IMG/VR virus record: IMGVR_UViG_3300046010_007226
Span: 1 to 20,309 of that record
Strand: one strand, 5' to 3'
DNA: 20,309 nt
Source of the DNA: a virus
Made by a program: the position numbers and the translations under genes. The notes under the pieces were generated by a model. The model was given only the letters and a program-made list of their open reading frames with translations. It was not told where the DNA came from and did no database searches. Shown here in pieces: positions 713-15,906 of the stretch (position 1 is the first letter of the stretch; each line of letters starts with the position of its first letter).

Positions 713-2203
713 ATGGAGTTACCAAAGTTACAAAAATTCGACACTAACAAGCCGAAGAAAAAGAAAATTTTATTGTTAGCAGATGATTTTCGATTACCAT
801 CGGGAATTGGCACAATAAGCAAAGAAATCATTTTTAATACCGTACAACATTATGATTGGATTCAATTGGGTGCAGCACTACATCATCCGGATGCTGGCAA
901 AGCATTTGATTTATCAGCTGACATTACACGAGAAACAGGTGTAGAAGATGCATCAGTTAAATTGATTGCATGGAACGGATATGGAGATAGGAATATTTTA
1001 TTTTCAATCCTTCAACAAGAAAAACCAGATGCAATATTCCATTTTACGGATCCTAGATATTGGACATGGTTGTATGCATTAGAACATGAAATTAAAACTA
1101 CATATGCAACGCCAATTATTTATTATTCTATTTGGGATGATTTACCCTATCCAATGTGGAATGCACCTTTTTATGGTAGTTGCGATTTAATTATGGGCAT
1201 TAGTAAGCAATCTGACAATATTCATAGAGAAGTGCTTACGCAGAACGGATTTAAAGTTGTAGACTATGATGAATCAGATGAACTTTGTGCTGAAGTTAGT
1301 GCAGATGAAATCATTACAGGATTTGTTCCTCACGGATTAAATGATAATACATTTAAACCATTAGATAAAAAAGATCCGCAATATGTTTCAATGCACGAAA
1401 AAATCAAACAAGCAAATGATGTTGATTTTGTAGTATTTTGGAATAACCGAAACATCAGAAGAAAACAACCAGGAGATGTAATTTTAGCATTCAAACATTT
1501 TGTAGATGGGTTACCGGAAGATCAAAGATCTAGAGTTGCACTTTTAATGCATACTCAAGTTGTAGATGACAACGGAACGGATCTGAATGCCATATGGAAA
1601 ACATTAGCGCCAGAATGTAAAGTATTATTTTCAGAAGCAAAGGTTAATGCACAGGAACTTAATGCAATGTATAATGTTGCTGATGTAGTAGTTAATATTG
1701 CTAGCAATGAAGGTTGGGGACTAAGTTCCACTGAAGCAATATTGACAGGAACGCCAATTGTTAATAACGTTACCGGAGGATTACAAGACCAATGTGGTTT
1801 TACGGATGAAAATGGGGAATGGATTAGATTCAACAATGAATTTGCAACAAATCACACCGGTAAATTTACTAAACATGGCAATTGGGTAAAACCAGTATTT
1901 CCAAGTAACCGTTCGCTGCAAGGTTCACCAGCAACTCCATATATCTTTGACGACCGAGTAAATTTCGAAGATGTAGCTGATGCATTTCGATATTGGTATG
2001 ATACTCCAGAAACGATTCGTGAAGAAATGGGTTATGCAGGTAGAGAATGGGCTTTAAAGAATGGTTTAACGGCTCAACAAATGGGACAAAAAATGATCCA
2101 TATGATAGATTATTTGTTTGAAGCAAAACCAATAGCAAGAAAGCGTTATACATTAACACAAGTTACAGAAACAAAATACGAAAAAACAGGAATAGTAGAA
2201 TGA
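713..2203 (+). CDS. GT4-like (GT-B) glycosyltransferase, 496 aa
   Basis: This is a retaining-type glycosyltransferase of GT-B fold that would transfer a sugar from a nucleotide donor in the cytoplasm. Visible features are the N-terminal strand KKILLLADDF (about 17-26) followed by SGIGT, the acceptor-side Rossmann domain to about residue 205 (ending GFVPHGL), and a second Rossmann domain opening with VVFWNNRNIRRKQPGD (240-255). The GT4 E-x7-E donor motif is present as EGWGLSSTE (E333, E341) and is followed by TGTPIV and a GG loop. A Shine-Dalgarno-like AAAGGA at 703-708 supports the ATG at 713. The first residues, MELPKLQKF, resemble the last residues of the next protein. No membrane segment is seen. 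It ends in an ATGA overlap with the next gene. Donor and acceptor are not predictable. Confidence 0.85.
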   Translation: MELPKLQKFDTNKPKKKKILLLADDFRLPSGIGTISKEIIFNTVQHYDWIQLGAALHHPDAGKAFDLSADITRETGVEDASVKLIAWNGYGDRNILFSILQQEKPDAIFHFTDPRYWTWLYALEHEIKTTYATPIIYYSIWDDLPYPMWNAPFYGSCDLIMGISKQSDNIHREVLTQNGFKVVDYDESDELCAEVSADEIITGFVPHGLNDNTFKPLDKKDPQYVSMHEKIKQANDVDFVVFWNNRNIRRKQPGDVILAFKHFVDGLPEDQRSRVALLMHTQVVDDNGTDLNAIWKTLAPECKVLFSEAKVNAQELNAMYNVADVVVNIASNEGWGLSSTEAILTGTPIVNNVTGGLQDQCGFTDENGEWIRFNNEFATNHTGKFTKHGNWVKPVFPSNRSLQGSPATPYIFDDRVNFEDVADAFRYWYDTPETIREEMGYAGREWALKNGLTAQQMGQKMIHMIDYLFEAKPIARKRYTLTQVTETKYEKTGIVE

Positions 2204-3435
2204 GAACAGCAGTTATATCATCACCAGTAGCAACACAATCAGGTTACGGACATCATGCCCGCGAAGTAATCAAACAATTCATAGATAAACGAGGAGAAGA
2301 ATGGGACATCAAATTGCTTTCAATGCCATGGGGTCACACACCATTTACTTTTCCTATTCCATTGGATTGGCAACGCAGAATTATTCCGCTTCCATTAACA
2401 GCACAGCCAGACATTTGGGTACAAATAACAGTTCCAAATGAATTTCAGCCGGTAGGTAAATACAATATTGGTGTAACAGCTGGGACAGAAGGAGATGTTT
2501 GTCCTGCAGATTGGATTGCAAAAATCAATCAAATGCAAGTTACAATTGTACCTAGTCAATTTACTAAATCAGTATTTGTTGAAACAGCAAAACGAAATAA
2601 TTTATCAATAACAACGAATATACAAGTTATTCCGGAATATTTTGATGAAACACAATACAATAATAAATCAGTAACAACCTCAGTTGCTGGATTAAATGAA
2701 ATTAAACAATCAGAAGCATTTTTAAGTGTAGGGCATTGGTTGCAAGGTCAAGTTGGAGAAGATCGTAAAAATATTGGAGGAATGATTCATTGTTTCTTTA
2801 ATACATTTAAAAATAAAAAAGATGCACCTGCATTAATACTTAAAACAAGTGGCGCAACATATGCAGTAACAGATCGTTTCGAAATGCAAAATCGAATCAA
2901 TCAGATTGCATCATTGTTCCGAGGAGAACGATTACCTGCAGTATACATATTACATGGCGATTTAACAACTGCTGAAATGAATGCATTGTACAATCATCCT
3001 AAAGTAAAAGCAATGGTATCATTTACGAAAGCTGAAGGATTCGGAAGACCATTACTTGAATTTGCAACTACAGGTAAACCAATCATTGCTCCGCATTATT
3101 CCGGCCAAGTCGATTTCTTAAAGAAAGATTTTATATGTGCATTGCCAGGACAATTGACTCCTATTCATCAAACAGCACAAAATGATTTTTTAATTGGAGA
3201 TGCTAAATGGTTTACACCTGATTACGGATATGCAAGTGCCATGTTTAAAGATGTTTTAAAGAATTATAAAAAATGGGTAGAATTAGCAAAACGTCAAAGA
3301 TACTTCGTTAATTCAACATTTACTGAAACGGCAGTATCTACCATATATGACCGCGTATTAGAAATTATAGATTCTGGTATTGATAAGTTACCAAAAGCTG
3401 TTGAGTTAAAATTACCAAAACTACAAAAGGTTTGA
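2200..3435 (+). CDS. GT4-like (GT-B) glycosyltransferase, 411 aa
   Basis: A second GT-B transferase. It opens with a hydrophobic strand (TAVISSPV) and a glycine-rich loop, SGYGHHAREV (14-23), as in GT4 acceptor domains. The middle carries VTIVPSQFTKSVF (114-126), the usual end of the N-terminal domain where a candidate acceptor loop lies. The C-terminal domain begins near residue 173 (AFLSVGHWL) and has a donor-site Lys around LKTSGAT. The E-x7-E motif is EGFGRPLLE (E279, E287), followed by TGKPIIAP. The start overlaps the upstream stop as ATGA, so translation is probably coupled. The C-terminal tail LKLPKLQKV repeats the LPKLQK string found at the N-terminus of the upstream transferase. No membrane segment is seen, and the sugar specificity is unknown. 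Confidence 0.85.
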   Translation: MRTAVISSPVATQSGYGHHAREVIKQFIDKRGEEWDIKLLSMPWGHTPFTFPIPLDWQRRIIPLPLTAQPDIWVQITVPNEFQPVGKYNIGVTAGTEGDVCPADWIAKINQMQVTIVPSQFTKSVFVETAKRNNLSITTNIQVIPEYFDETQYNNKSVTTSVAGLNEIKQSEAFLSVGHWLQGQVGEDRKNIGGMIHCFFNTFKNKKDAPALILKTSGATYAVTDRFEMQNRINQIASLFRGERLPAVYILHGDLTTAEMNALYNHPKVKAMVSFTKAEGFGRPLLEFATTGKPIIAPHYSGQVDFLKKDFICALPGQLTPIHQTAQNDFLIGDAKWFTPDYGYASAMFKDVLKNYKKWVELAKRQRYFVNSTFTETAVSTIYDRVLEIIDSGIDKLPKAVELKLPKLQKV

Positions 3436-3464: not shown

Positions 3465-4085
3465 ATGAAAATAACATATGCAGTTACTGTTTGTAACGAA
3501 TTCTTAGAAATACAACGCTTATTGAATTTTTTGTTAACACACAAAAGACCACAAGATGGAGTTGTTGTATTATTTGATTCAAAAAATGGCGACCCAGAAA
3601 TAGAATCATTTTTACGAAATCGGTCTGTTAATAAATCATTTGCCTGGCATAAAGCTGAATTTCAAGGACATTTTGCAGATTGGAAAAACCATTTAACAAG
3701 CTTATGTGATGGCGATTATATCTTTCAGATAGATGCTGATGAGATGATTAATGAATATGTTTGTCGATTGCTTCCACAAGTATTAGAATCAAATCGAGTT
3801 GATGTAATCCGAGTACCAAGAATCAATACAGTAATTGGTATGAATCAAGATCATATGCAACAATGGGGTTGGGCTGTTAATGAACATGGATGGATTAATT
3901 TTCCAGATTACCAATGGCGTGTATATCGAAACACTCCAGAAATAAAATGGCAAAATAAAGTACATGAAACATTGACGGGATATGAAACTATAGCACACTT
4001 ACCAACAGAAACAGAATGGTGTTTATTGCATCCAAAAACAATTGAACGACAAATCCGACAAAATAATTATTACGACACTTTATAA
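3465..4085 (+). CDS. GT2-family (GT-A) glycosyltransferase, 206 aa
   Basis: The protein begins with the GT2-type strand ITYAVTVCNE (3-12) and has a metal-binding D-x-D within QIDADEMI (D90, D92), preceded by DWKNHLTSLCDGDY. The C-terminal part has YQWRVYRNTPEIKW and KVHETL (165-170), where the His-Glu pair resembles the KVHE element of WaaE-type LPS-core glucosyltransferases. Its length is near the short end of GT2 catalytic domains, and there is no C-terminal membrane anchor. It follows a 29-base gap with a promoter-like sequence and is followed one base later by the nucleotidyltransferase gene. The GT2 assignment is sound; the WaaE comparison is a distant likeness only. Confidence 0.8.
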   Translation: MKITYAVTVCNEFLEIQRLLNFLLTHKRPQDGVVVLFDSKNGDPEIESFLRNRSVNKSFAWHKAEFQGHFADWKNHLTSLCDGDYIFQIDADEMINEYVCRLLPQVLESNRVDVIRVPRINTVIGMNQDHMQQWGWAVNEHGWINFPDYQWRVYRNTPEIKWQNKVHETLTGYETIAHLPTETEWCLLHPKTIERQIRQNNYYDTL

Positions 4086-4086
4086 T

Positions 4087-4515
4087 ATGAAACATGCTAT
4101 AACATCGATGTATGCTAATCCAATACATCCAGGACATATTGATTGTTTACGTTTATCAAAACAATTAGTTGATAAATTATGGGTCATTGTTAACAATGAT
4201 TTACAAGCAGAATTAAAACGCGGAACTAAATCATTTCAAGATGAAACGTTTCGAATCAATATAATTGAATCTATTAAATATGTAGATGTAGCAATTATGT
4301 CAATTGACACTGATACAACAGTATGTAATTCAATCAAATTAGTATATGATTTAATTAAACAATCTGATTCTGATTCAGAGATAGTATTTACGAAGGGCGG
4401 CGATAGATTTGCCACAGAAATTCCTGAAAAACAAATTTGTGATGAACTTAATATCAGTATAGTTGACGGATTAGGTGAAAAAACTTATAATTCGAGTCAA
4501 TTAATTAAAGTATAA
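4087..4515 (+). CDS. RfaE2/TagD-like cytidylyltransferase-fold nucleotidyltransferase, 142 aa
   Basis: This enzyme would activate a phosphorylated sugar or polyol as a nucleotide diphosphate. The N-terminal MYANPIHPGHIDCL (8-21) carries the HxGH signature (H14-P-G-H17) that contacts the nucleotide. IKYVDVAI (63-70) matches the RYVDEVI strand of TagD. FTKGGDRF (101-108) matches the KGGD element of RfaE2, and KTYNSSQLIK (132-141) occupies the place of the C-terminal STTSII motif. The frame extends upstream to a TTG at 4042 inside the previous gene. The ATG at 4087, one base after the upstream stop, begins exactly where family homology starts and is preferred. The substrate is unknown: glycerol phosphate, heptose phosphate and others are used within this family. 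No partner kinase is present in the window. Confidence 0.8.
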   Translation: MKHAITSMYANPIHPGHIDCLRLSKQLVDKLWVIVNNDLQAELKRGTKSFQDETFRINIIESIKYVDVAIMSIDTDTTVCNSIKLVYDLIKQSDSDSEIVFTKGGDRFATEIPEKQICDELNISIVDGLGEKTYNSSQLIKV

Positions 4516-4516
4516 T

Positions 4517-5374
4517 ATGATTGCACCATTAACATTTTGTATATCGACATATAATAATTTACCTTATTTAAAGTTAGCTATTCATTCAGTTAGAAAGAAT
4601 AGTTATTATAAAGATGCACCTTTTATCATTCATGCAGAAAATTGTACGGATGGCACCAATGAATGGCTTGAACATGTTAAAAATGAATACAATTTAACTA
4701 TAATTATCGAACCAAATAATGAAATAGTTAAAGGTATCGGAGGGGGCATGAATGTTTGTGCAGAACATGTAGACACAGAATATATCATGTTTTTACACTC
4801 TGATTTTTATGTATCAGAAAATTGGGATTTAAGTTTATTAAAAATATTCGAAAAATATCCAAATGAAAAGATGTGGATAAGTTCACATCGTATAGAGCCT
4901 AGAATGTTTGAAAATTCAGATTCTCGTCCAGGTACCATTATAATTAATAAAGATGTATGGGGTGCATATCATGATGATTTTACTCCGGTTGAATTTGAAA
5001 GATTTGCAAACGAGTTTACAGAACAAAATTTAGAATATGAAATTCCTAAGGGAGAAGGCGTATCGGGCTTGATTCGAAAATGTGATTGGGATGAAGTTGG
5101 CGGTAATGATCCTTTATTTGCACCCGCAAGTTGGGATGATATGGATTTATTTTTAAGGATGACGAATTCTGGATTCAAATTTGTTCTAACTGCATCATCT
5201 TTAGTTTGGCATTTTGGAGCACGTGGCAGTCATAGATTAGAAGAGAATAACGGAAAAACAGCAGACCGACAAAAACACGCTGAAGAAAAAAATATACATA
5301 TATGGTTAAATAAATGGCATGGTTTGCCTAAATATAATGATGTAGGTATGATAACAGGAATAGTAATCAATTAA
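4517..5374 (+). CDS. GT2-family (GT-A) glycosyltransferase, 285 aa
   Basis: The GT-A start is LTFCISTYNNLPYLKLAIHS (5-24). A nucleotide-binding segment follows at HAENCTDGTNEWL, and the D-x-D equivalent is HSDF (94-97) in IMFLHSDFYVS. The catalytic acidic region is GGNDPLFAPASWDDMDLFLRM (D207, D208), followed by the late motif VWHFGARGSHR (230-240). These late motifs align with those of the transferase at 13075 (LLFAPFPYEDSDIFQRW and VYHLTCRGHRW), so the two are likely paralogues. There is no membrane segment. The gene starts one base after the upstream stop, followed by a 12-base gap before gmd. Donor and acceptor are unknown. Confidence 0.85.
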   Translation: MIAPLTFCISTYNNLPYLKLAIHSVRKNSYYKDAPFIIHAENCTDGTNEWLEHVKNEYNLTIIIEPNNEIVKGIGGGMNVCAEHVDTEYIMFLHSDFYVSENWDLSLLKIFEKYPNEKMWISSHRIEPRMFENSDSRPGTIIINKDVWGAYHDDFTPVEFERFANEFTEQNLEYEIPKGEGVSGLIRKCDWDEVGGNDPLFAPASWDDMDLFLRMTNSGFKFVLTASSLVWHFGARGSHRLEENNGKTADRQKHAEEKNIHIWLNKWHGLPKYNDVGMITGIVIN

Positions 5375-5386
5375 AAAAAATAACGT

Positions 5387-6355
5387 ATGAAGAAACGAGC
5401 ATTAATTACGGGAATTGGCGGAATGGATGGGTCGCATCTAGCTGAATTCTTATTATCTAAAGATTATGAAGTATTTGGATTAGAACGAAGAAAATCTACT
5501 CCATATTCGCCAAATTTAAAAAATGTTAGTAATAACATTAATTTATTGAAAGGAGATTTATCCGATCAAAACTCATTGCTTCGAGCAGTTAAAGAAAGTG
5601 AACCTCATGAAGTTTATAATTTAGGTGCACAATCATTTGCAGGAGAAAGTTGGGGAACACCAGAACAAACATCAGATATTACAGGTTTAGGTGCATTACG
5701 GGTACTTGAAGCAATTCGAGAATATGGAAATAAAAATACTAAATTTTATCAAGCATCAACATCGGAAATGTTTGGAAAAAAAGGTGGAACTGCAAATGAA
5801 TTAACAGATTTTCATCCTTGTTCACCATATGGGGTATCGAAATTATACGCACATTGGATAACGCGTAATTATCGAGAAAGTTACGGTATTTTTGCAGTAA
5901 ATGGAATTTTATTTAATCACGAATCTGAAAGACGCGGCGTAGAATTTGTAACAAGAAAAATTACAGATGGCGTTGCAAAAATTCATTTAGGTTTAGCTGA
6001 TCATATTACCTTAGGTAATTTAGATTCAAAAAGAGATTGGGGATATGCACCAGATTACGTAGAAGGTATGTGGATGATGTTGCAACAAGATCAACCAGAA
6101 GATTACGTGTTAGCAACTGGCGAAACTCATTCAATTAAAGAATTTTTAGATGAAGCATTTAGATGTATCGGTGTTGATAATTGGACTAAATTTGTTAAAT
6201 TTGATAGCAAATTTCTTAGACCAGTTGATCCAATGTATTTATTAGGAGATTCTACAAAAGCAAGAGAAAAATTAGGTTGGGCTCCTAAAACATCTTTTAC
6301 GGAAATGGTTTCTAAAATGGTAACTAACGATATCTCATTACTTCAAGGTATTTAA
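5387..6355 (+). CDS. gmd: GDP-mannose 4,6-dehydratase
   Basis: Gmd converts GDP-D-mannose to GDP-4-keto-6-deoxy-D-mannose, the branch point to fucose, rhamnose, perosamine and related sugars. It is an extended short-chain dehydrogenase. The NADP-binding loop is TGIGGMDG (8-15). The catalytic residues are visible as T125 and E127 in ASTSEMFG and Y148-x3-K152 in SPYGVSKLYAHW. Family hallmarks NGILFNHES (172-180), FVTRKI (187-192) and LGNLDSKRDWGYAPDYVEGMW (209-229) are intact. At 322 residues it is shorter than typical bacterial Gmd (about 370). The RRSS arginine pair of the NADP site appears as ERRKS. No matching reductase (Fcl, Rmd or Per type) is visible in the window. The stop and the next start share an A (TAATG). 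The assignment is firm. Confidence 0.93.
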   Translation: MKKRALITGIGGMDGSHLAEFLLSKDYEVFGLERRKSTPYSPNLKNVSNNINLLKGDLSDQNSLLRAVKESEPHEVYNLGAQSFAGESWGTPEQTSDITGLGALRVLEAIREYGNKNTKFYQASTSEMFGKKGGTANELTDFHPCSPYGVSKLYAHWITRNYRESYGIFAVNGILFNHESERRGVEFVTRKITDGVAKIHLGLADHITLGNLDSKRDWGYAPDYVEGMWMMLQQDQPEDYVLATGETHSIKEFLDEAFRCIGVDNWTKFVKFDSKFLRPVDPMYLLGDSTKAREKLGWAPKTSFTEMVSKMVTNDISLLQGI

Positions 6356-7296
6356 TGAAAAAAATATTATTTATAAGTAGAAAAGCTGAAAGATGTGGCG
6401 TTGCTGATTACGGACGCCGCATCAATTCGGTATTACAAACATCTACATTATTTATAACCAATTGGGTTGAAATTGAAACAGCTGAAGAATTTACATTAGC
6501 TTTCAATGAAATGCAACCAGATCTTGTTCTATACAATTATTATCCTATAATATTACCGTTTATAACAGATGAATTTTTAAGTGATAAACGCCATGTTCCC
6601 CATGTTGCATTATATCATGAAGTTGGGTTAGCATTTACTCCCACTGCAATAATTGATGTCGATTCTACATTACCAGATAATTTAGAAAGTTTACATTTTT
6701 CTGTTCCTAGGCCATTATTTGATAATTTTAAAGATGATAATACATCAACACATAATGATATCATTACAATTGGAACATTTGGATTCGGATTTCGCGATAA
6801 AAATTTTCCAAAATTAGCACAATTGGTTTGTGAGCAATTTGATAACGCAAAAATAAGAATAAATACGCCATTTGCTACATTTGGCGATGCCGACGGGCAA
6901 TCAGCTCGTAACGAAATTGAAAAAATGAAATATGTAATTGCAAATAGTGGCAAGAATATTATTTTAGATGTTAATCATGATTTTTTAGAACATGAAGATT
7001 TATTAAATTTTCTACGAGGAAATGACATCAATATCTTTATGTATGAACCATTTAATGATAGAAGTTTAAGTGGAAGTATTGATTATGCGTTATCAGCTAG
7101 AAGACCGATCGGTATTTCTAGAAGCTGGATGTTTAGGCATATCAATTGGGTCAAACCATCTATATTTGTAGATGAAATGCCTATAATAGATATAATAAAA
7201 AATGGAATAGAACCGTTGCAACCTATATATGAAATTCATTCAACGACGCAACTACTACTAAAATATGAATACATATTAAATACGATTTTAAAATAA
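6355..7296 (+). CDS. GT-B-like glycosyltransferase of an unusual family, 313 aa (paralogue 1)
   Basis: The N-terminal strand KKILFISRK and the loop ERCGVADYGRRI (12-23) resemble the glycine-rich acceptor loop of GT4 proteins (CGI-x-xYT). Further on are PDLVLYNYYPI (55-65), a hinge near PRPLF (118-122), and a second-domain opening IITIGTFGFGFRDKNF (136-151), where GT-B donor domains usually start. There is no standard E-x7-E motif. The end of the core is SIDYALSARRPIGIS (about 235-250). All these blocks recur in order in the protein at 8541, so the two are diverged paralogues separated by the methyltransferase gene. The glycosyltransferase call rests on fold-level likeness and context, and the donor is unknown. 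The start uses TAATG coupling to gmd. Confidence 0.6.
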   Translation: MKKILFISRKAERCGVADYGRRINSVLQTSTLFITNWVEIETAEEFTLAFNEMQPDLVLYNYYPIILPFITDEFLSDKRHVPHVALYHEVGLAFTPTAIIDVDSTLPDNLESLHFSVPRPLFDNFKDDNTSTHNDIITIGTFGFGFRDKNFPKLAQLVCEQFDNAKIRINTPFATFGDADGQSARNEIEKMKYVIANSGKNIILDVNHDFLEHEDLLNFLRGNDINIFMYEPFNDRSLSGSIDYALSARRPIGISRSWMFRHINWVKPSIFVDEMPIIDIIKNGIEPLQPIYEIHSTTQLLLKYEYILNTILK

Positions 7297-7309: not shown

Positions 7310-8539
7310 ATGAAAAACACAACAAAACTATTTAGTTTAGGCGATTTATATGTATCTGATTTCATTAATGTTGATTCAGATGCAAGAGCCGGCAAACACG
7401 ATATGACATTAGTTATCGATGAAAGATATGGAGCAGCTCGATTGGATAAATGTACTCCGATACATTCAATGTTTGGAAAATATTGGTATCGAAGTGGAAC
7501 TAACTTAACTATGACAAATGAATTAAATTCAATCGTTAGTAGTGTAACATCAGTTCATAAATTAAAAGATAATGATTTATGGTTAGATATTGCATGTAAT
7601 GATGGCACGTTATTAAAAGCAGTTCCTAATAACATTTTAAAATTAGGTATTGATCCTGCAGAAGATTCATTTGTAGAAGAATCATCTAAAGTAGCAGATG
7701 AAATTATACAAGATTTTTTTACGGCTGAGAGTTATAGTAGATCACAATTTAAAGATAAAAAAGCATCGGTTATAACATGTATTGCAATGTTTTATGATTT
7801 AGATGAGCCGATTGATTTTTTAAATGATGTTCATTCAGTATTAGATGATGATGGATTATTCGTATTACAAATGAGTTATACTCCATTAATGATTGAACAA
7901 TTGGCATTTGATAATATTTGTCATGAACATGTTTATTATTGGTCACTGTTTTCAATTAAAAAATTATTAGAAGCAGCTAACTTTCAAATTGTCGATTGTC
8001 AATTGAATGATGTAAACGGCGGTAGCTTTAGAATATACATAAAAAAATCTAATGCTGATTTAAGTACATTTGCATCTAGACCATATCGAGATGTATGTAA
8101 TGTTAGAATTAATTCTTTGTTAGAATGGGAATCTAATTTAAAACTTGATCAAGTAGATACTTGGATTGATTTTTATAATAGAATTGAACAATTAAAAGAA
8201 CAAACTGTTAATTTTATTAAAGAAGAAAAAGCTAAAGGTAAAGTTATTTGCGGATATGGTGCATCTACTAAAGGCAATACCTTATTGCAATATTTTGGAT
8301 TAGATAATACATTAATTGATGCAATTGCAGAACGTTCTCATTACAAATTTGGACTGAAAACAATTGGAACAAACATTCCAATTATTTCTGAAGAACAAAT
8401 GCGTGAATTGAATCCAGATTATATGTTAGTATTACCATGGCATTTTATTTCTGAATTTATTATAAGAGAAGATGAATACTTAACAAAAGGCGGGAAATTT
8501 ATCGTTCCATGTCCTAGATTTGAAATTATTGGAAAATAG
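7310..8539 (+). CDS. SAM-dependent C-methyltransferase family protein (TylCIII-like), 409 aa
   Basis: Members of this family add a C-methyl group to keto-deoxysugar nucleotides. Residues 8-60 match the N-terminal domain by pattern (FSLGDLYVSDF, then FGKYWYRSGTN). The SAM-binding strand and loop is LWLDIACNDGTLL (90-102). The active-site block is DNICHEHVYYWSLFSIKKLL (201-220), with the HEH-x-Y residues (205-209) that hold the catalytic base in TylCIII/TcaB9-type enzymes. VNGGSFRIYI (235-244) follows. The C-terminal Methyltransf_14-like domain carries VICGYGASTKGNTLL and ends in PDYMLVLPWHF. The N-terminal CxxC zinc knuckles usual for the family are missing; only C48 remains. A Shine-Dalgarno-like AAAGGAA precedes the start. 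Gmd upstream would supply a suitable 4-keto-6-deoxy substrate, which is an inference from context. Confidence 0.82.
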   Translation: MKNTTKLFSLGDLYVSDFINVDSDARAGKHDMTLVIDERYGAARLDKCTPIHSMFGKYWYRSGTNLTMTNELNSIVSSVTSVHKLKDNDLWLDIACNDGTLLKAVPNNILKLGIDPAEDSFVEESSKVADEIIQDFFTAESYSRSQFKDKKASVITCIAMFYDLDEPIDFLNDVHSVLDDDGLFVLQMSYTPLMIEQLAFDNICHEHVYYWSLFSIKKLLEAANFQIVDCQLNDVNGGSFRIYIKKSNADLSTFASRPYRDVCNVRINSLLEWESNLKLDQVDTWIDFYNRIEQLKEQTVNFIKEEKAKGKVICGYGASTKGNTLLQYFGLDNTLIDAIAERSHYKFGLKTIGTNIPIISEEQMRELNPDYMLVLPWHFISEFIIREDEYLTKGGKFIVPCPRFEIIGK

Positions 8540-8540
8540 A

Positions 8541-9548
8541 ATGAAAATACTTTATGTTAATCCATCCAATCGCGAATGTGGTATATATCAATACGGATTA
8601 CGCGTATATAATGCATTAGAAACATATTTACCTGAATGGTGTGATTATGAATTACACTATACTGAAAATTATGATAATGTTGATCAACATATTGAATTGT
8701 TACATCAACTTAAACCAAATGTTGTTTTATATTCATTTAATGATACAGCAATGCCATTTGTAAAACATTATATGAGTAATCCAGATCGTTCAATCCATCA
8801 TATTGCAATATCACATGAACAAGAACAAGTCGTAATAGATAATCCGGGTATGTTCCCGGATGATTGGATCGGCGGAAATTTATTTGATAATTGGATTGGA
8901 CACGATCCTACATTAAATATCTCTAGACCAAATATATTCAATGCAACTCGTCCAGTATTACGAAGTGAAAATAAACCTACAAATAAAACAGATGATCGAA
9001 TAGTATTTGGTAATTCTGGATTTGGTCATCGTAGAAAAATGCATTATGAAATTGTAACTGCAATTCAACAAGAATATGATGAAGCTGTAATTAGATTCAA
9101 TATGCCACCGTCGCATTTTGGAGATAAACATTGCGTAGAATCTAGAGCAATTGCTGAGCATTGTCGTAATTTAATTCATAAACCAGGTATCGAATTGCAA
9201 GTTACATATGATTTATTAGAAACTGAACACGATTTAGTTGAATGGATGTATGGAAATGATGTTAATATTTATTTTTCTCAACAATGGGACGTGCCGCATC
9301 AGATGCGAGGTGTTAATTCATCGCCGGATACTGCATTATCTACTAGACGGCCATTAATTGTAAATCATTCATCGATGACTCGACACTTAACACCATATTT
9401 TGGTGCATATGGTGCAGACGGTTCAATTAGACAATTAATTAATATGCAATTAAGAAATAAAACACCAGAATTAGTATACAATGAATGGAACCCATCTAGA
9501 ATGGCTAGCGAATATTATAAAATGATAAAAAAGGTATGTAACGTATGA
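8541..9548 (+). CDS. GT-B-like glycosyltransferase of an unusual family, 335 aa (paralogue 2)
   Basis: This is a paralogue of the protein at 6355. Matching blocks are RECGIYQYGLRVY (11-23) against ERCGVADYGRRI, KPNVVLYSFNDTAMPFV against QPDLVLYNYYPIILPFI, VFGNSGFGHRRKM (155-167) against IGTFGFGFRDKNF, WMYGNDVNIYFSQ against FLRGNDINIFMYE, and PDTALSTRRPLIV against IDYALSARRPIGI. The two Rossmann-like halves suggest a GT-B glycosyltransferase, but no E-x7-E motif is seen. The frame extends upstream to a TTG at 8520 inside the methyltransferase gene. The ATG at 8541, one base after that gene's stop, begins exactly at the conserved MKILYVN strand and is preferred. The end overlaps the epimerase start as ATGA. 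Placement of the paralogues around sugar-nucleotide enzymes suggests each handles a different sugar, which is inference. Confidence 0.62.
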   Translation: MKILYVNPSNRECGIYQYGLRVYNALETYLPEWCDYELHYTENYDNVDQHIELLHQLKPNVVLYSFNDTAMPFVKHYMSNPDRSIHHIAISHEQEQVVIDNPGMFPDDWIGGNLFDNWIGHDPTLNISRPNIFNATRPVLRSENKPTNKTDDRIVFGNSGFGHRRKMHYEIVTAIQQEYDEAVIRFNMPPSHFGDKHCVESRAIAEHCRNLIHKPGIELQVTYDLLETEHDLVEWMYGNDVNIYFSQQWDVPHQMRGVNSSPDTALSTRRPLIVNHSSMTRHLTPYFGAYGADGSIRQLINMQLRNKTPELVYNEWNPSRMASEYYKMIKKVCNV

Positions 9549-10516
9549 AAACGATATTAATAACAGGTGCAGGTGGATTTATTGGATCACATCTAGCAGA
9601 AAGACTAAAACGAGAAGGAAATTATATAATCGGCGTAGATATTAAATATCCTGAATTCAAACAACATTTGGAAATATGTAATGAATTTCATATTATTGAT
9701 TTAAGAGTTCAATCTAATGTTGAACATTTTATACCATCTCGTAAGATTGATCAAATATTTCATTTAGCAGCCGATATGGGTGGTATGGGATATGTTTTCG
9801 GAAAAGATGCGCAGATTTTACAAAATAGCGGAAGAATTGATTTGAATATATTTGATTGGGCACATAAATATAATGTAAATGATATTTTATTTACATCTTC
9901 TGCATGTAGATATCCAGATGAGTTACAAAATGGAGATGATATTATGTTACGAGAAGATATGGCATATCCAGCAAACCCACAAGATGGGTATGGTTGGGAA
10001 AAGATCTTTGGCGAATTGTTATGTAGATTTTATCATGAAAATTATAACATGAATACCCACGTTGTCGCATTTCATAATATATATGGCGAAAATGGAACAT
10101 GGTGTGGCGGAAAAGAAAAATCTCCAGCAGCAATATGTCGAAAAGTAGCAGAAGCAACTGATGGAGGATTTATAGAAATTTGGGGAGATGGAACTCAGTT
10201 ACGTAGTTTTTGTCACGTATCAGATGCAATCGAAGGTATGATTCGAACAATGAATACAGATTTTCATTCTGCAATTAATATTGGTACCGATCGTTGCATT
10301 TCAATTAAAGATTTTACACAAATGATTATAGACATCAGTGGTAAAAATTTAACTATTAAATATGTAGATGGTGCAATTGGAGTAAAAAGTAGAAATTCGG
10401 ATAACACATTAAGCAAACAACTTTTGAAATGGGAGCCTACTATCGATTTAGAAGAAGGAATGGCAAATTTATATACGTGGATATTACAACAAGTTAATTT
10501 GGCAAAACATGATTAA
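9545..10516 (+). CDS. GDP-mannose 3,5-epimerase-like SDR enzyme, 323 aa
   Basis: GDP-mannose 3,5-epimerase makes GDP-L-galactose (and GDP-L-gulose) from GDP-D-mannose and is best known from the plant ascorbate route. This protein has the NAD loop TGAGGFIGSHLAE (7-19) and the plant-GME-like string HLAADMGGMGYV (73-84). It has SSACRYP with C121 (Arabidopsis C145), PQDGYGWEK with Y149-x3-K153, FHNIYGENGTWCGGKEKSPA with K192 (Arabidopsis K217), and EIWGDGTQLRSF (211-222). The C-terminal GVKSRNSDNTL matches the GVRGRNSDN region. These features favour GME over GDP-fucose synthase, which has a different GSSCIYP context and lacks ADMGGMG. It is coupled to the upstream gene by ATGA and overlaps the next gene by 8 bases. 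The family call is strong; the exact product sugar is unproven. Confidence 0.85.
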   Translation: MKTILITGAGGFIGSHLAERLKREGNYIIGVDIKYPEFKQHLEICNEFHIIDLRVQSNVEHFIPSRKIDQIFHLAADMGGMGYVFGKDAQILQNSGRIDLNIFDWAHKYNVNDILFTSSACRYPDELQNGDDIMLREDMAYPANPQDGYGWEKIFGELLCRFYHENYNMNTHVVAFHNIYGENGTWCGGKEKSPAAICRKVAEATDGGFIEIWGDGTQLRSFCHVSDAIEGMIRTMNTDFHSAINIGTDRCISIKDFTQMIIDISGKNLTIKYVDGAIGVKSRNSDNTLSKQLLKWEPTIDLEEGMANLYTWILQQVNLAKHD

Positions 10517-10862
10517 AATTAGTTTAGATGAATCATATGTATTTGATTTATTATCAATATATGAAGTTAAAATAGATTATAGTACAGATTTAGATAAAAA
10601 AACTAAGTTGCAACAATCATATGATTTATTGAAATCAGAAATTACTGACACAATAGGTAACAAATTAGTTGTTGATATTTTAGCTAGTGATGAATATGCT
10701 CAATTGAAGCAAAGCAACCAAATTGTATTTGAATTAGTAGATCGAGCAAATGAAACTGAATTATCAAAATTAACAGCTGATGCAAATTATATGAGATATT
10801 TAAACAAAGTATCATTGCAAAATAAATTTTTTAATACAATTGTAACGGAAGTAAAAATATGA
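10509..10862 (+). CDS. Small helical protein, 117 aa, possibly DUF6165-like
   Basis: A soluble, mostly helical protein. An N-terminal strand (IKISLDE) leads into a helix with IYEVKIDYSTDL and a K-rich stretch (LDKKTKLQQSYDLLKSEI, about 28-45). A second helical part ends with ANYMRYLNKVSLQNKFFNTI. The order of a short strand, a 'hxIKh' helix, a 'KL...Y..L' helix and a final 'N..R...K..IN'-like helix recalls the DUF6165 family found in polysaccharide loci. The match is from memory of the pattern and is weak. It overlaps the epimerase gene by 8 bases and the GT9-like gene by ATGA, so it is embedded in the locus. The function is unknown; an accessory role beside the neighbouring transferase is a guess. 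Confidence 0.65.
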   Translation: MIKISLDESYVFDLLSIYEVKIDYSTDLDKKTKLQQSYDLLKSEITDTIGNKLVVDILASDEYAQLKQSNQIVFELVDRANETELSKLTADANYMRYLNKVSLQNKFFNTIVTEVKI

Positions 10863-11566
10863 ATTATCTAGGCGGCGGAAAAATGGGAGATTTTATCCAT
10901 AGTTTACTTGTATGTAAATATAAGTTTGATCAAACTGGAGAAAAATCAAATATATTTTTATCAAATAATGGCCATGCTTTTGAATATGATTTAGAATTTA
11001 CATTCAACGAGTTAAAACCATTAATGATGTGTCAGCTATGGGTGGATACATTTAGTATACATGATTCTGAATCAATTGATATCGATTTAACTGAATGGCG
11101 ACATTCTCCATTATTATATCAAACTAATTGGTTGGAAATATATTCAAACATGTATCTAAATAATATTAAAATTCCTAATGAATATAATTGGATAACGGTT
11201 GAAAAAGACAGCCGTTATTCAAATTCATTAATGATTAATAGATCTTTGAAAACAGTTGATAACAATAAATTACATGTATATGATGATTTGATTTCAAAAT
11301 ATGATGATGTATATTTTATTTGTTTTGATATCAAACAATATTACCAGTTTCCATTACATTATAAAACGAAGTTATTACTTGTTAATAATTTATATGATTT
11401 CTTTATAAAGATTGCTAGTTGTCATTTTTTTATAGGAAATCAATCCGGGCCGTTTGCATGGGCATCGGCATTGAATACTCCTAGAGCTGTTGAATTATTA
11501 AATATTATTGATAGGCAACATTATATCAATGATTCGAATTATTATGAATTTTTTAATTATTTTTAA
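10859..11566 (+). CDS. GT9-like (heptosyltransferase-type) protein, 235 aa
   Basis: The start GGGKMGDFIHSLLVCK (5-20) resembles the GD-x-I/V-x-x-L loop of GT9 enzymes, and HFFIGNQSGPFAWASALNTPRAVEL (189-213) resembles their donor-site block (fiGndSGpmHlAaAlGtP). The usual His of that block is replaced by Ala or Trp (FAWASA). At 235 residues it is well short of typical heptosyltransferases (about 320-350), so the central region is reduced. It may be a minimal GT-B transferase, or a protein that has kept the fold but changed its chemistry. It starts with an ATGA overlap and ends two bases before the next gene. No membrane segment is seen. The donor is unknown, and heptose should not be assumed. 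Confidence 0.6.
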   Translation: MNYLGGGKMGDFIHSLLVCKYKFDQTGEKSNIFLSNNGHAFEYDLEFTFNELKPLMMCQLWVDTFSIHDSESIDIDLTEWRHSPLLYQTNWLEIYSNMYLNNIKIPNEYNWITVEKDSRYSNSLMINRSLKTVDNNKLHVYDDLISKYDDVYFICFDIKQYYQFPLHYKTKLLLVNNLYDFFIKIASCHFFIGNQSGPFAWASALNTPRAVELLNIIDRQHYINDSNYYEFFNYF

Positions 11567-11568
11567 TT

Positions 11569-12351
11569 ATGCATAACATAGTTTTATATTGTAAATCATT
11601 TAAACGTGATATTGAATTAGTTAAACGTTTAATGGAATCTATTGATCAATACAATCGAGATAATATTGTAACATATCTAAGTGTACCTAAACATGATATG
11701 GAATTATTTCAATCATTAAATTTAAACAATGTTATTTTAATTGAGGATGAATTAGTATACGAAGGAAATGCTTCTGGTTGGATGCAACAACAAATTGTAA
11801 AGTCATCATTTTATAAATTAAAATTAGCAAAAAATTGGGTATGTTTAGATTCAGATGCATTCTTTATAAAACCATTTTATATTACAGATTTTATATATGA
11901 AGATGATATTCCATATACAGTGATGCATGAACAAAAAGAATTATTTACTTGGACTGCCATTAATTCTAACATATTAGGGTTTGATCCTAAAGAAAGTTTC
12001 AATTCCGATCGCAAACAAATCATGGATGTATTTGATAGAAAAGGTCGAATATATGATTTCGGCCCAGCACCTATAATTTGGTCATCTAAAGTTTGGCTAG
12101 ATTTAGAAAATAATTATATGATACCAAATAATTTAACTATGCAGCAATTAATTGAATTTTGTGCATCTGAATTTACTTGGTATGGAGAAGCATTATTAAG
12201 ATTCAAATCAATACCAATTTATCCTGCAGAACCATTATTCAAAGTTTTTCATTATAAACAACAATTGGAAGAATTTAATAAATTAAATATTACAGCTGAA
12301 TGTATATCAAAAAATTATTTAGGTATCATTGTACAATCAAATATCAATTAA
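11569..12351 (+). CDS. DUF6492-like GT-A glycosyltransferase, 260 aa
   Basis: The protein starts with a strand and loop, IVLYCKSFKRDIELVKRL (4-21). It carries SGWMQQQIVKSSFYKL (69-84), matching the 'GW..QQ.lKl' segment of DUF6492-type proteins, followed by WVCLDSDAFFIKPF (90-103), which holds the metal-binding D-x-D (D94, D96). Later, FGPAPIIWSSKVW resembles that family's 'pa.iws..vl..l' region. FTWYGEALL supplies an acidic residue (Glu) that could be the catalytic base, which is an inference. It is soluble, with no membrane anchor. It lies two bases after the GT9-like gene and one base before the next transferase, so it is probably cotranscribed with both. Confidence 0.68.
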   Translation: MHNIVLYCKSFKRDIELVKRLMESIDQYNRDNIVTYLSVPKHDMELFQSLNLNNVILIEDELVYEGNASGWMQQQIVKSSFYKLKLAKNWVCLDSDAFFIKPFYITDFIYEDDIPYTVMHEQKELFTWTAINSNILGFDPKESFNSDRKQIMDVFDRKGRIYDFGPAPIIWSSKVWLDLENNYMIPNNLTMQQLIEFCASEFTWYGEALLRFKSIPIYPAEPLFKVFHYKQQLEEFNKLNITAECISKNYLGIIVQSNIN

Positions 12352-12352
12352 T

Positions 12353-13078
12353 ATGTTAATAGCAACACTTAATCACAACTTACCAGATCTAACAGATAAT
12401 CTTGTTAATCAATTACAACGAGATGCATATTTTTCAAAATGTGAACTTATGGTATTAGATAATGGATCTTCAGAAACTTTGGCGCAATCAACAACACATC
12501 GTTTAGAACAAAATGTTTTCTTTGGAGGAGGATTCAACGTAGTACTTGATTATTTTCTAAACGAAACCGAACATGAGTGGTTGTATTTTTTAAACAACGA
12601 TTTGATATTCCATGGACCATCATTTCTAAAAACATCAATTGATAATGCAATTACTAGCAATGCAGATGTATATTCTCCGTCAGTTATAAACGCATCAATT
12701 GAACAATGTCATTGGAAACAAATGTGGAATTGGGGAAAGGGTATGCGTTCTGTAAAATGGATTGATTTTCAATGTCCACTTATACATCGCAGAGTATTAG
12801 AAAAAATACAACAGTTTCCGCATGAATTGATATATGGTTGGGGATTGGACTTTTATACGGGATGTATTACGGAGACTAATGATTGGAAAACTGTAGTAGA
12901 TGATACGCATACAATTTGTCATTTGAATTCACAAACATTCAAACAAAATAAAATTGATATAGGCGTTACTGATTTTTGTAGGAATGCTGAAACAAATATG
13001 AATACATTCTTTTTGAATTCTGAATTTAATTCATTATATTTTAATATGAGACAATACGGAGAAACTTATAACATATGA
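12353..13078 (+). CDS. GT2-family glycosyltransferase, 241 aa
   Basis: The GT2 layout is clear. The start is MLIATLNHNLPDLTDNLVNQ (1-20), the nucleotide-binding motif is LMVLDNGSS (32-40), VFFGGGFNVVLDYF (55-68) corresponds to the 'N.G.a.a.N.g' helix, and the metal site is YFLNNDLIF (78-86). This combination resembles rhamnosyltransferase-like GT2 proteins. The reading frame extends upstream to a TTG at 12329 within the previous gene. The ATG at 12353, one base after that gene's stop, starts directly on the GT2 beta strand and is preferred. No membrane segment is present. The ATGA at its end couples it to the next transferase. The sugar is unknown. Confidence 0.8.
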   Translation: MLIATLNHNLPDLTDNLVNQLQRDAYFSKCELMVLDNGSSETLAQSTTHRLEQNVFFGGGFNVVLDYFLNETEHEWLYFLNNDLIFHGPSFLKTSIDNAITSNADVYSPSVINASIEQCHWKQMWNWGKGMRSVKWIDFQCPLIHRRVLEKIQQFPHELIYGWGLDFYTGCITETNDWKTVVDDTHTICHLNSQTFKQNKIDIGVTDFCRNAETNMNTFFLNSEFNSLYFNMRQYGETYNI

Positions 13079-14247
13079 TATCTTTTATAATACCTAGTTA
13101 CAACAATTTGCGGCACTTAAAGAATGTGTACGCTAGTATTCAAAAACATGCATCAGAAGCTGAAATAATTTTATTAGATGACGGGTCAACTGATGGCACA
13201 TGGGAATGGATGCAAGAACAATATAAACAAGATGAAAATCTAGTTATATTACGAGTAGATGAACGAATAGGACATACAATCCTTTATGATAAAGGAATTG
13301 ATATGGCTACAAATGATATAGTGGGTATATTACACGCTGATATGATTTTAGGGCCAAATTATATTGAGAACATGATAAAGCACTTACGACCAGGGAGAGT
13401 TGTCTGTGCAACCCGTATAGAACCACCTTTACATCCTGCAGGAAAAGAAAAAATCATAATGGATTTTGGTCAAGATTTTGATACATTAGATATTGATTCA
13501 TTTGAAGAGTTTGTTATGTATCAACAAGAAAAAACAGTTGATGAAATTAGTTACGGAATGTTTGCCCCATGGATTTTATATAAAAAAGATTTCCAAGCTA
13601 TAGGAGGACACGATCTATTATTTGCTCCATTTCCATATGAAGATTCAGATATATTTCAACGTTGGATATTAGCAGGTTACGATCTCATACAAAGTAGAGA
13701 TGCACTTGTATATCATTTAACATGTAGAGGACATCGATGGACTGAACAAGTTGGCCAGGATGATGAATATTATAAAAATGCATGTCACAAAGCTAGTAGA
13801 AACTATTTACGTAAATGGGGTAGTTGGATTAAAAATAATGAATATCAATATCCTATTATTACACCTAAATATAACATTGCATTTGTAGTTCAAAATTGTA
13901 CGTTATCAATGCTTGAAACATTAGAGCCATGGTGTGATAGAATATACATAGAAGATGATATGCAAGTTATCACTACAGCATATATTGAATCAGAACAACC
14001 AAATACACGATTTGATCTAACTAAGAGAATTTTTGTTATAGGACATAATGATCCACAAGGAGAAAATGATATTGTAGTTGAGTTTGACGCTAAACAACTA
14101 AGCAATCACAACTTCCAGTACATACAACAACTTGCAGCAATTATCAAAGATAGTGGTGCTATAGGTGAGTTTGAAATAGACATATTCAAAATTACAATAT
14201 ATTCATTAGAGGAACAACAAGATAATCTTATTATTTTGAAACAATAA
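13075..14247 (+). CDS. GT2-family glycosyltransferase with an extra C-terminal domain, 390 aa
   Basis: The catalytic domain (about 1-250) has MISFIIPSYNNLRHLKNVYA (1-20), the nucleotide motif LLDDGSTDGT (33-42), the D-x-D equivalent LHADMILG (86-93) and the acidic catalytic site FAPFPYEDSDIF (183-194). VYHLTCRGHRW (212-222) closes the domain. These late motifs match the transferase at 4517, indicating a paralogue. Residues about 260-390 form a further alpha/beta segment starting YNIAFVVQNCTLSMLETLEP and ending with strands rich in Ile and Phe. This segment is not part of the GT2 core and I do not recognise it. It may bind the acceptor or another enzyme. The gene is the last of the sugar block; a CATATTTATA element follows its stop directly. 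Confidence 0.82.
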   Translation: MISFIIPSYNNLRHLKNVYASIQKHASEAEIILLDDGSTDGTWEWMQEQYKQDENLVILRVDERIGHTILYDKGIDMATNDIVGILHADMILGPNYIENMIKHLRPGRVVCATRIEPPLHPAGKEKIIMDFGQDFDTLDIDSFEEFVMYQQEKTVDEISYGMFAPWILYKKDFQAIGGHDLLFAPFPYEDSDIFQRWILAGYDLIQSRDALVYHLTCRGHRWTEQVGQDDEYYKNACHKASRNYLRKWGSWIKNNEYQYPIITPKYNIAFVVQNCTLSMLETLEPWCDRIYIEDDMQVITTAYIESEQPNTRFDLTKRIFVIGHNDPQGENDIVVEFDAKQLSNHNFQYIQQLAAIIKDSGAIGEFEIDIFKITIYSLEEQQDNLIILKQ

Positions 14248-14257
14248 CATATTTATA
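14248..14257 (+). promoter_or_regulatory. CATATTTATA motif, copy 2, before the lysis block
   Basis: CATATTTATA starts directly after the TAA at 14245-14247 and ends one base before the ATG at 14259. It is identical over ten bases to the cores at 683 and 16257. If it works as a promoter for the ATG at 14259, the transcript would begin inside that gene, so it may rather serve the holin and endolysin genes downstream. The function is inferred. Confidence 0.4.
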
Positions 14258-14258
14258 T

Positions 14259-14579
14259 ATGAAAATACGAAAACCAAAGTTATTAGAAACCGTGAAGGAT
14301 GTAATGAAAAAAAGCACAAATTTTTTTCAGAGAATGTTGTCAGATTCGAGAAGTGGAGATATATCATCAAAGCGCGTTATCGGCGTGTCTGGTTTTATTG
14401 CGTTGACTGCTATGATGTTTATCAATGCATTGTATCCAAAGTCGATTGCCCCGTCTCATGAATTAATTTCTGCTATTGAATATATTGTTATTGCTGCATT
14501 GTTTAGTGCTTCAGTTGATAAATTTTCGTATAAAAATGATATCAAGGAAATAAATCAAGAAAAAACACCAAAACAATAA
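14259..14579 (+). CDS. Small two-TM membrane protein of the lysis block, 106 aa
   Basis: A basic N-terminal cytoplasmic part (1-38, with a run of Lys and Arg) is followed by two hydrophobic segments at about 40-58 (VIGVSGFIALTAMMFINAL) and 68-86 (ELISAIEYIVIAALFSASV), then a charged C-terminal tail. The segment SGDISSKRVIGVSGFIAL resembles small membrane proteins found next to holins in phages of Bacteroidetes-type hosts. A holin, antiholin or lysis-regulator role is inferred from position just ahead of a holin and an endolysin. No signal peptide or lipobox is seen. Its start directly abuts the CATATTTATA motif, leaving no room for a Shine-Dalgarno sequence. Confidence 0.7.
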   Translation: MKIRKPKLLETVKDVMKKSTNFFQRMLSDSRSGDISSKRVIGVSGFIALTAMMFINALYPKSIAPSHELISAIEYIVIAALFSASVDKFSYKNDIKEINQEKTPKQ

Positions 14580-14582
14580 GGA
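14578..14582 (+). promoter_or_regulatory. Ribosome binding site for the holin start
   Basis: AAGGA overlaps the stop of the previous gene. It lies 1 base from the ATG at 14584, too close for normal use, and 10 bases from the ATG at 14593, which is workable. It therefore favours the second start. Confidence 0.5.
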
Positions 14583-14592
14583 TATGATAAGA

Positions 14593-15021
14593 ATGAAAAC
14601 CATACCGTTACTAGCACTTACATTTACAACCACAGTCACATTTATTTGTTCATATTTTTACAACTTAACAATGGATAACTTTGAACAATATACTTCATTG
14701 TTAGCAGTTGTGTTGTTAGATGGATTTTTTGGAATCATAGCAGGATGTAAACGCGAAGGATTTAAAACATTCAAGGCAATCAAAGTATTACGAACTGCAA
14801 TAGTTTGGACAATGTTTTTAACGGTGCTGCTTTTAGTAGAAAAAGGTTTTGCAGGAACAGCATGGTTAAGTGAAACAATTGTTATTCCATTTATCATATT
14901 TCAATTGATAAGTGCTCTTAAAAATGCATCAATGATAGGTTGGATACCGTCTAGCTTATTAAACCAAATATTAGATAAGATAGATTTACATAAAGGTCAC
15001 CGAGACGAAGATAAAAAATAA
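14593..15021 (+). CDS. Holin of the Phage_holin_4 (TcdE/Cp-1-like) type, 142 aa
   Basis: Holins form lesions in the inner membrane to release or activate the endolysin. Counting from the upstream ATG at 14584, hydrophobic segments lie near 6-26, 37-54, 69-86 and 97-113. The block LLAVVLLDGFFGIIAGCKREG (39-59), with a conserved Asp before the FFGIIA turn, is typical of the Phage_holin_4 family. KTFKAIKVLRTAIVW follows, and the C-terminus is charged (DLHKGHRDEDKK). Two in-frame starts lie three codons apart (MIRM). The Shine-Dalgarno spacing favours 14593, while 14584 would add one Arg and give a 145-aa form, as in dual-start holins. The gene is nine bases before the endolysin gene. Family assignment is fairly sure. 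Confidence 0.8.
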   Translation: MKTIPLLALTFTTTVTFICSYFYNLTMDNFEQYTSLLAVVLLDGFFGIIAGCKREGFKTFKAIKVLRTAIVWTMFLTVLLLVEKGFAGTAWLSETIVIPFIIFQLISALKNASMIGWIPSSLLNQILDKIDLHKGHRDEDKK

Positions 15022-15030
15022 AGGAAAGTT

Positions 15031-15906
15031 ATGGTATTGAAACGAGGTAGCAAAGGCGAATCAGTAAAAACGTTACAAGAATTTTTAAAATTAACTGCAG
15101 ATGGGGACTTTGGTCCTAAAACAGAAGCAGCAGTTAAAGATTGGCAAAAAACACACGGATTAATGGTTGATGGTGTTGTAGGTCCTAAAACATGGGCAGC
15201 AATGGGTATTTTAAATACTGACAATGCAGAAAACATTGAAGTAGCAAATGCTTTGCAAATTAAAAAATATTGGATGGCTGAAGGAACTTATTTCAAAGGC
15301 CCTGTTCCAAAAGATTGGATATTCTTACATCATACAGCCGGCGGAGATAATCCTTACCAAGTAGCTGATATGTGGGCTAGAGATAATCGCGGCAATGTTG
15401 CAACAGAATATATCTTAGGCGGACAGAATGTATCAAATAAGAACACTAAATTTGACGGGGAATTGATTCAATGTTTTCCTGACGGAGGTTATGGGTGGCA
15501 TACTGGAACCGGAAATTCTGTAATGCACAGAAATTCAGTTGCAATTGAAGTTTGTTGTATGGGTCAAATCGTTAATGGTAAAACATATGTTAACACTCCA
15601 GCTGATCCATACCAAGTAATTAAATTAGCAAAACCGTTTAGAGGGTTTCAATATTGGCATAACTATTCTGATGCGCAAATTACTGCGTTGAAAAATTGGA
15701 TTTTGTTTGTAGCAAATAAATATAGCATTGATCCGCGTATAGGATTAGTAGAATATGTACGAGCTAAAGGTGCTGATGGATTTGATGTATTAGATGTTCG
15801 AAAAGCAGAATCAACTCCAGGAATGTATTCGCATACCAACGTTATCCGCGGCAAAGTGGATATGTATCCGCATCCGGATCTAATCGATATGCTCTTATCT
15901 CTTTAA
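15031..15906 (+). CDS. Endolysin: N-terminal PG-binding domain plus Amidase_2, 291 aa
   Basis: N-acetylmuramoyl-L-alanine amidases cut the bond between the glycan strand and the stem peptide of peptidoglycan. Residues 1-60 form a PG_binding_1 domain (LKRGSKGESVKTLQEFL, then DGDFGPKTEAAVKDWQ and DGVVGPKTWAAMG). Residues about 95-290 form the amidase, with FLHHTAGG (H100/H101), HRNSVAIEVC (166-175) and SHTNVIRGKVDMYPHPD (H268 and D277 as likely zinc ligands, as in AmpD). The binding domain comes before the catalytic one, an order seen in endolysins of some large Gram-negative phages. No signal peptide is present, so export would need the holin. AAAGGAA at 15021-15027 is a good ribosome site for the ATG. 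Confidence 0.92.
   Translation: MVLKRGSKGESVKTLQEFLKLTADGDFGPKTEAAVKDWQKTHGLMVDGVVGPKTWAAMGILNTDNAENIEVANALQIKKYWMAEGTYFKGPVPKDWIFLHHTAGGDNPYQVADMWARDNRGNVATEYILGGQNVSNKNTKFDGELIQCFPDGGYGWHTGTGNSVMHRNSVAIEVCCMGQIVNGKTYVNTPADPYQVIKLAKPFRGFQYWHNYSDAQITALKNWILFVANKYSIDPRIGLVEYVRAKGADGFDVLDVRKAESTPGMYSHTNVIRGKVDMYPHPDLIDMLLSL

Follow-up and report, generated by a model that had tools for sequence, protein, structure and literature searches.

Plant GDP-mannose 3,5-epimerase (GME) of the ascorbate pathway is represented by solved structures from Arabidopsis (2c59) and Myrciaria (8sg0, which contains substrate, product and NAD). The bacterial GME MfGM35E from Methylacidiphilum fumariolicum has been purified and assayed (PMC6678494). 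It has also been reported that ORF123 of the cyanophage S-SCSM1 is a GDP-mannose-3,5-epimerase (PMC9602691), and the GME type appears among cyanophage genes (PMC10665884). A published residue key with residue roles distinguishes GME, GDP-fucose synthase and GalE (PMC8787198). It includes a triad of Ser, Tyr and Lys, Cys as the acid, Lys as the base (replaced by His in GDP-fucose synthase), a diphosphate Arg, an Asn and an Arg beside the Cys; the Cys/Lys pair is absent from GalE.

By using pattern scans, at least 574 stretches encoding relatives were found in bacterial and archaeal genomes and at least 162 in IMG/VR. Among annotated phages, an SDR relative occurs in 171 records, and the best 36 of these 171 (39-46% identity, variously labelled) come mostly from Synechococcus and Prochlorococcus phages. 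The published cyanophage enzyme and these bacterial and phage relatives indicate that the gene type is already known in phages. Thus, the view of the first-pass annotation that GME is mainly a plant enzyme and unusual in a phage was not borne out: relatives are abundant in bacteria, and a phage GME is a good annotation and no surprise. Among the papers searched, none was found on GDP-L-galactose or C-methyltransferase cassettes in phages.

The window analyzed here is an entire IMG/VR record of 20,309 bases. Its origin from a phage, as assumed earlier, was borne out by a holin and a peptidoglycan-binding amidase endolysin (14584..15906, plus strand), which are phage hallmarks, and by other phage genes in the same record. 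Compared with named phages (S-CRM01, Lak and huge phages of 634-735 kb), the proteins of the window show about 38% identity or less, with the exception of one sugar 3-C-methyltransferase (CMT) match at 63%. The GME gene (9545..10516, plus strand) is a complete ORF of 323 amino acids with its ATG at 9545 and its stop at 10516. It sits within a tightly packed run of plus-strand genes extending from about 0.3 to 14.2 kb, sharing 4 bases (9545-9548) with the upstream gene at its start and 8 bases (10509-10516) with the downstream gene at its end. All motifs listed in the first-pass annotation could be located in the ORF at the residues given: ADMGGMG (residues 76-82), SSACRYP (118-124, with Cys121), Tyr149-x3-Lys153, GGKEKSPA (188-195, with Lys192) and RNSDN (283-287). 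Moreover, GAGGFIG at residues 8-14 (GxxGxxG) together with S119, Y149 and K153 places the protein in the extended SDR fold.

Several lines of evidence were used to define the enzyme class. The closest solved proteins are plant GMEs (phmmer E 1.1e-87 for 8sg0 and 1e-85 for 2c59; about 43% identity), followed by UDP-xylose synthase (6e-28) and GDP-fucose synthase (about 1e-24), so that a gap of about 57 orders of magnitude separates the E-values of plant GME from those of the next solved relatives. All eight published active-site residues of GME are present: S119, C121, Y149 and K153 correspond to Arabidopsis S143, C145, Y174 and K178, and N178, K192, R220 and R283 to N203, K217, R243 and R306, including the Asn (Asn178), the diphosphate-binding Arg (Arg220) and the Cys-acidifying Arg (Arg283). 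The same catalytic set is found in MfGM35E according to its published alignment (PMC6678494); that bacterial-type enzyme differs in being a host gene in an LPS-like context. In comparison with plant GME, the phage protein is shorter at its N-terminus, reads GxxGxxG instead of the Arabidopsis GxxGxxA, carries Arg122/Ala175 in place of the plant Ile/Arg, and belongs to a phage glycan cassette rather than to the ascorbate pathway.

Database labels would suggest a competing assignment, namely that the protein only looks like GME and is in fact a GDP-fucose synthase or a generic nucleotide-sugar 4-epimerase: the PHROG label is nucleotide-sugar epimerase, and the top NCBIfam match is GDP-fucose synthase (NF047922). 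That match reaches only 127.6 bits against a cut-off of 500, which is why the earlier warning about mislabelling was right, and GalE (TIGR01179) is likewise below its cut-off (95.9 bits versus 262), the window protein having the additional Cys/Lys pair that GalE lacks. GDP-L-fucose synthase (E. coli Fcl, GMER) does share the SDR fold, the Cys acid and the Ser/Tyr/Lys triad, but its identity to the phage protein is 24-28%, and its catalytic base is His (E. coli H179). At this position, 10 of 10 GDP-fucose synthases have His, the plant references have Lys, as do nearly all GME-type sequences, and the window carries Lys192. The NAD-binding residue Asp32 is also as in GME, whereas E. coli Fcl has Arg. 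A separate criterion, Arg versus Lys, is less clean, with some GDP-fucose synthases having an Arg aligned at the position concerned.

In a balanced tree, a branch with 100/100 support separates the 10 GDP-fucose synthases from 29 proteins of the GME type, among them the window, two plant GMEs and cyanophage S-SCSM1; this support applies to the split and not to the attachment point of the window inside GME. The balanced tree replaced an earlier one with E. coli GalE as outgroup, in which rooting of GDP-fucose synthase on the window lineage had an AU p of 0.7; this value concerns the rooting and not the split, and the very long GalE branch is uninformative at depth. The window protein falls outside both the GDP-fucose synthase and the GalE clades. 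Its AF2 model (mean pLDDT 94) is closest to plant GME (TM 0.95-0.96 and rmsd 1.3-1.4 A for GME structures; 0.96 and 1.3 A for 8sg0); for E. coli GDP-fucose synthase the values are TM 0.83 and rmsd 3.1 A. In a viral structure library GME was absent, and the top match had 23% identity. Residues, scores, tree and fold all speak against GDP-fucose synthase or GalE, and this assignment was rejected as extremely improbable. Sequence, catalytic residues, tree and predicted fold all support the GME-like class proposed at first, and the protein is very probably a GME-type enzyme.

One feature distinguishes the window from nearly all relatives. Among 169 GME-type sequences, only the window and its nearest relative (L090) combine Arg122, which adjoins the catalytic Cys, with Ala or Val at position 175 (Ala in the window). 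The other 167 of 167 have Arg175 together with Val, Ile or another uncharged residue at 122. This exchange might alter activity. The loss of an otherwise invariant Arg175, together with the long stem branch leading to these two members, could mean that the active site has been altered and that the gene copy is drifting or inactive. Such decay is nevertheless very doubtful: the catalytic residues are all intact, and the swap is maintained, because it is reciprocal and common to two phages whose GMEs are only 66% identical, i.e., it has been kept across 34% divergence. The dN/dS value is about 0.23 between the window and a relative (L262), a pair in which synonymous sites are nearly saturated; for GME pairs inside the linked phage group it is 0.04-0.2. 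These low values, reflecting purifying selection on relatives, indicate that the gene has been kept functional.

The surrounding genes, all on the plus strand, form a glycan cassette. GDP-mannose 4,6-dehydratase (Gmd; 5387..6355) matches PF16363 (E 3e-121), scores 398 bits for TIGR01472 (cut-off 415) and has 1rpn as its nearest solved relative (E 3.5e-101). The CMT gene (7310..8539; PF08484, E 9e-46) is related to D-mycarose 3-C-methyltransferase 4rv9 (E 4e-38) and to TcaB9. The gene overlapping the GME start (8541..9548) encodes a glycosyltransferase predicted as GT-B and GT4-like (best TM about 0.6, and thus at the fold level only), which is the likely partner of GME. By alignment, a second glycosyltransferase (6355..7296) belongs to the same family, which lacks a Pfam match and often adjoins GME in phages. 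Further glycosyltransferases (PF00534/PF00535) lie at 713-2203, 2200-3435, 3465-4085 and 4517-5374, with some of these Pfam matches being weak, under or near the cut-off. A cytidylyltransferase-like protein (4042..4515; PF01467, TIGR00125) is also present, and its gene type adjoins CMT in 13 of 80 loci. Downstream of GME, two small genes of 117 and 235 amino acids without a Pfam match (10509..11566), the first overlapping the GME end, also come after the cassette in four other loci (L090, L235, L236 and L256), and are followed by a DUF6492 protein and two family-2 glycosyltransferases (11569..14247). The cassette edge carries a YspA/SLOG-family protein (277-681; PF10686).

To what extent this arrangement recurs was examined from the CMT side, since the pattern chosen for the first viral GME set had missed GME genes linked to Gmd and CMT. 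At least 191 IMG/VR stretches with CMT relatives were obtained and 80 loci were kept; these are fragments of 4 to 19 kb that can miss genes, so that the counts are lower bounds on presence. In 47 of the 73 loci with enough sequence to tell, Gmd lies upstream of CMT at a distance of no more than 2.5 kb. GME occurs in 21 of the 80 loci, 20 of which also contain Gmd, and of the 21 full-length CMT-linked GME genes examined, 19 are immediately preceded by a member of the window's glycosyltransferase family. Together with the window, the CMT-linked GMEs represent about 11 lineages at 90% identity and 6 at 70%, and thus the 21 loci are not 21 independent events. Gmd, CMT, glycosyltransferase and GME are a recurrent phage cassette. 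In the nearest relative (L090, GME at 8001-8966), identities to the window are 66% for GME, 78% for Gmd, 79% for CMT, 58% for the GME-adjacent glycosyltransferase, and 58% and 47% for the two small genes. The glycosyltransferase-GME pair lies on opposite sides of CMT in the two phages, as if it had moved as one unit. The published S-SCSM1 enzyme (44% identity) is likewise a phage GME, and its glycan cluster also contains Gmd and glycosyltransferases; unlike the window gene, it adjoins a GDP-fucose synthase, no CMT was identified beside it, and it belongs to a separate cyanophage clade.

These linkages bear on whether the enzyme, a GME by descent, might act after Gmd and CMT, inverting C5 and reducing C4 of GDP-4-keto-6-deoxy-3-C-methyl-hexose and thereby replacing GDP-fucose synthase on the way to a virenose-type 3-C-methyl-6-deoxy-L-sugar. 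In the isolated Synechococcus phage DSL-LC02, Gmd, CMT and GDP-fucose synthase follow each other in a row, and a virenose route ending in GDP-fucose synthase has been proposed for Coxiella (PMC3539893). GDP-fucose synthase occurs in 7 of the 80 CMT loci but together with GME in none, and the presence of Gmd in nearly all CMT-linked GME loci would fit a joint pathway. This mutual exclusion keeps the reading alive at a low probability, but the loci behind the zero overlap are not independent by descent and are short enough to miss genes. Moreover, Gmd occurs with neither GME nor GDP-fucose synthase in 17 CMT loci whose two flanks each extend for 5 kb or more, suggesting that Gmd-CMT needs neither. 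P. aeruginosa-type Gmd has been described as also reducing its own product (PMC3539893), which could explain cassettes without a separate reductase. Retention of all GME catalytic residues, a GME-type rather than Fcl-type NAD site and the frequency of phage GME without Gmd also argue against a role after Gmd and CMT, which is on balance unlikely. It is slightly less probable still that GME was recruited as a C5-epimerase/C4-reductase for GDP-3-C-methyl-6-deoxy-L-hexoses with the Arg122/Arg175 swap reflecting a changed substrate fit; if so, this would be a new phage way to these sugars.

A GME acting on GDP-mannose itself is favored by three observations: the glycosyltransferase-GME pair appears to move as a unit, Gmd-CMT often occurs without GME, and GME often occurs without Gmd. 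Gmd was absent from the retrieved flank in 81 of the 82 GME loci of the first viral set (these loci being fragments), which indicates that GME commonly occurs without Gmd and could use GDP-mannose directly. Considering family, catalytic residues, predicted fold and gene linkage, it is likely that the phage GME converts host GDP-mannose to GDP-L-galactose and some GDP-L-gulose as a donor for a phage-encoded glycan; the gain of Arg122 beside the Cys and the loss of Arg175 speak against this reading insofar as they might change activity. In the predicted reaction, C4 of GDP-mannose drawn from the host would be oxidized by bound NAD+ with the assistance of Tyr149/Lys153, C5 and C3 would be inverted by the acid-base pair Cys121/Lys192 with Arg283 tuning the Cys, and the C4 ketone would be re-reduced. 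The product would then serve the phage's own glycosyltransferase, most likely the adjoining GT-B enzyme, while Gmd and CMT may in parallel supply this glycan with a branched deoxysugar; the glycan could alter the host surface or decorate the phage particle.

These findings provide a firm enzyme name for phage proteins annotated as nucleotide-sugar epimerase, UDP-glucose 4-epimerase or NAD-dependent dehydratase, and reveal a repeated phage link between putative GDP-L-galactose synthesis, GDP-mannose dehydration and sugar C-methylation, in which the CMT, usually right after Gmd, would offer a phage route to branched deoxysugars. If so, many environmental phages would be equipped to decorate the cell surface, or their own particles, with rare L-sugars and with branched sugars, which could affect receptor masking, competing phages or grazing.

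Several additional observations were made. In a 735 kb phage (L175, LR756501.1), a CMT 63% identical to that of the window lies about 4 kb from another CMT (13995-15221 and 9300-10523). Very divergent SDR paralogues with an incomplete catalytic set were found beside phage GME in three loci (L161:2406-3401, L172:10606-11460 and L093:1995-2837). The window also encodes a nucleotidyltransferase-like protein (18226-19278; Polbeta, phrog_36119) with relatives in Lak and Synechococcus phages.
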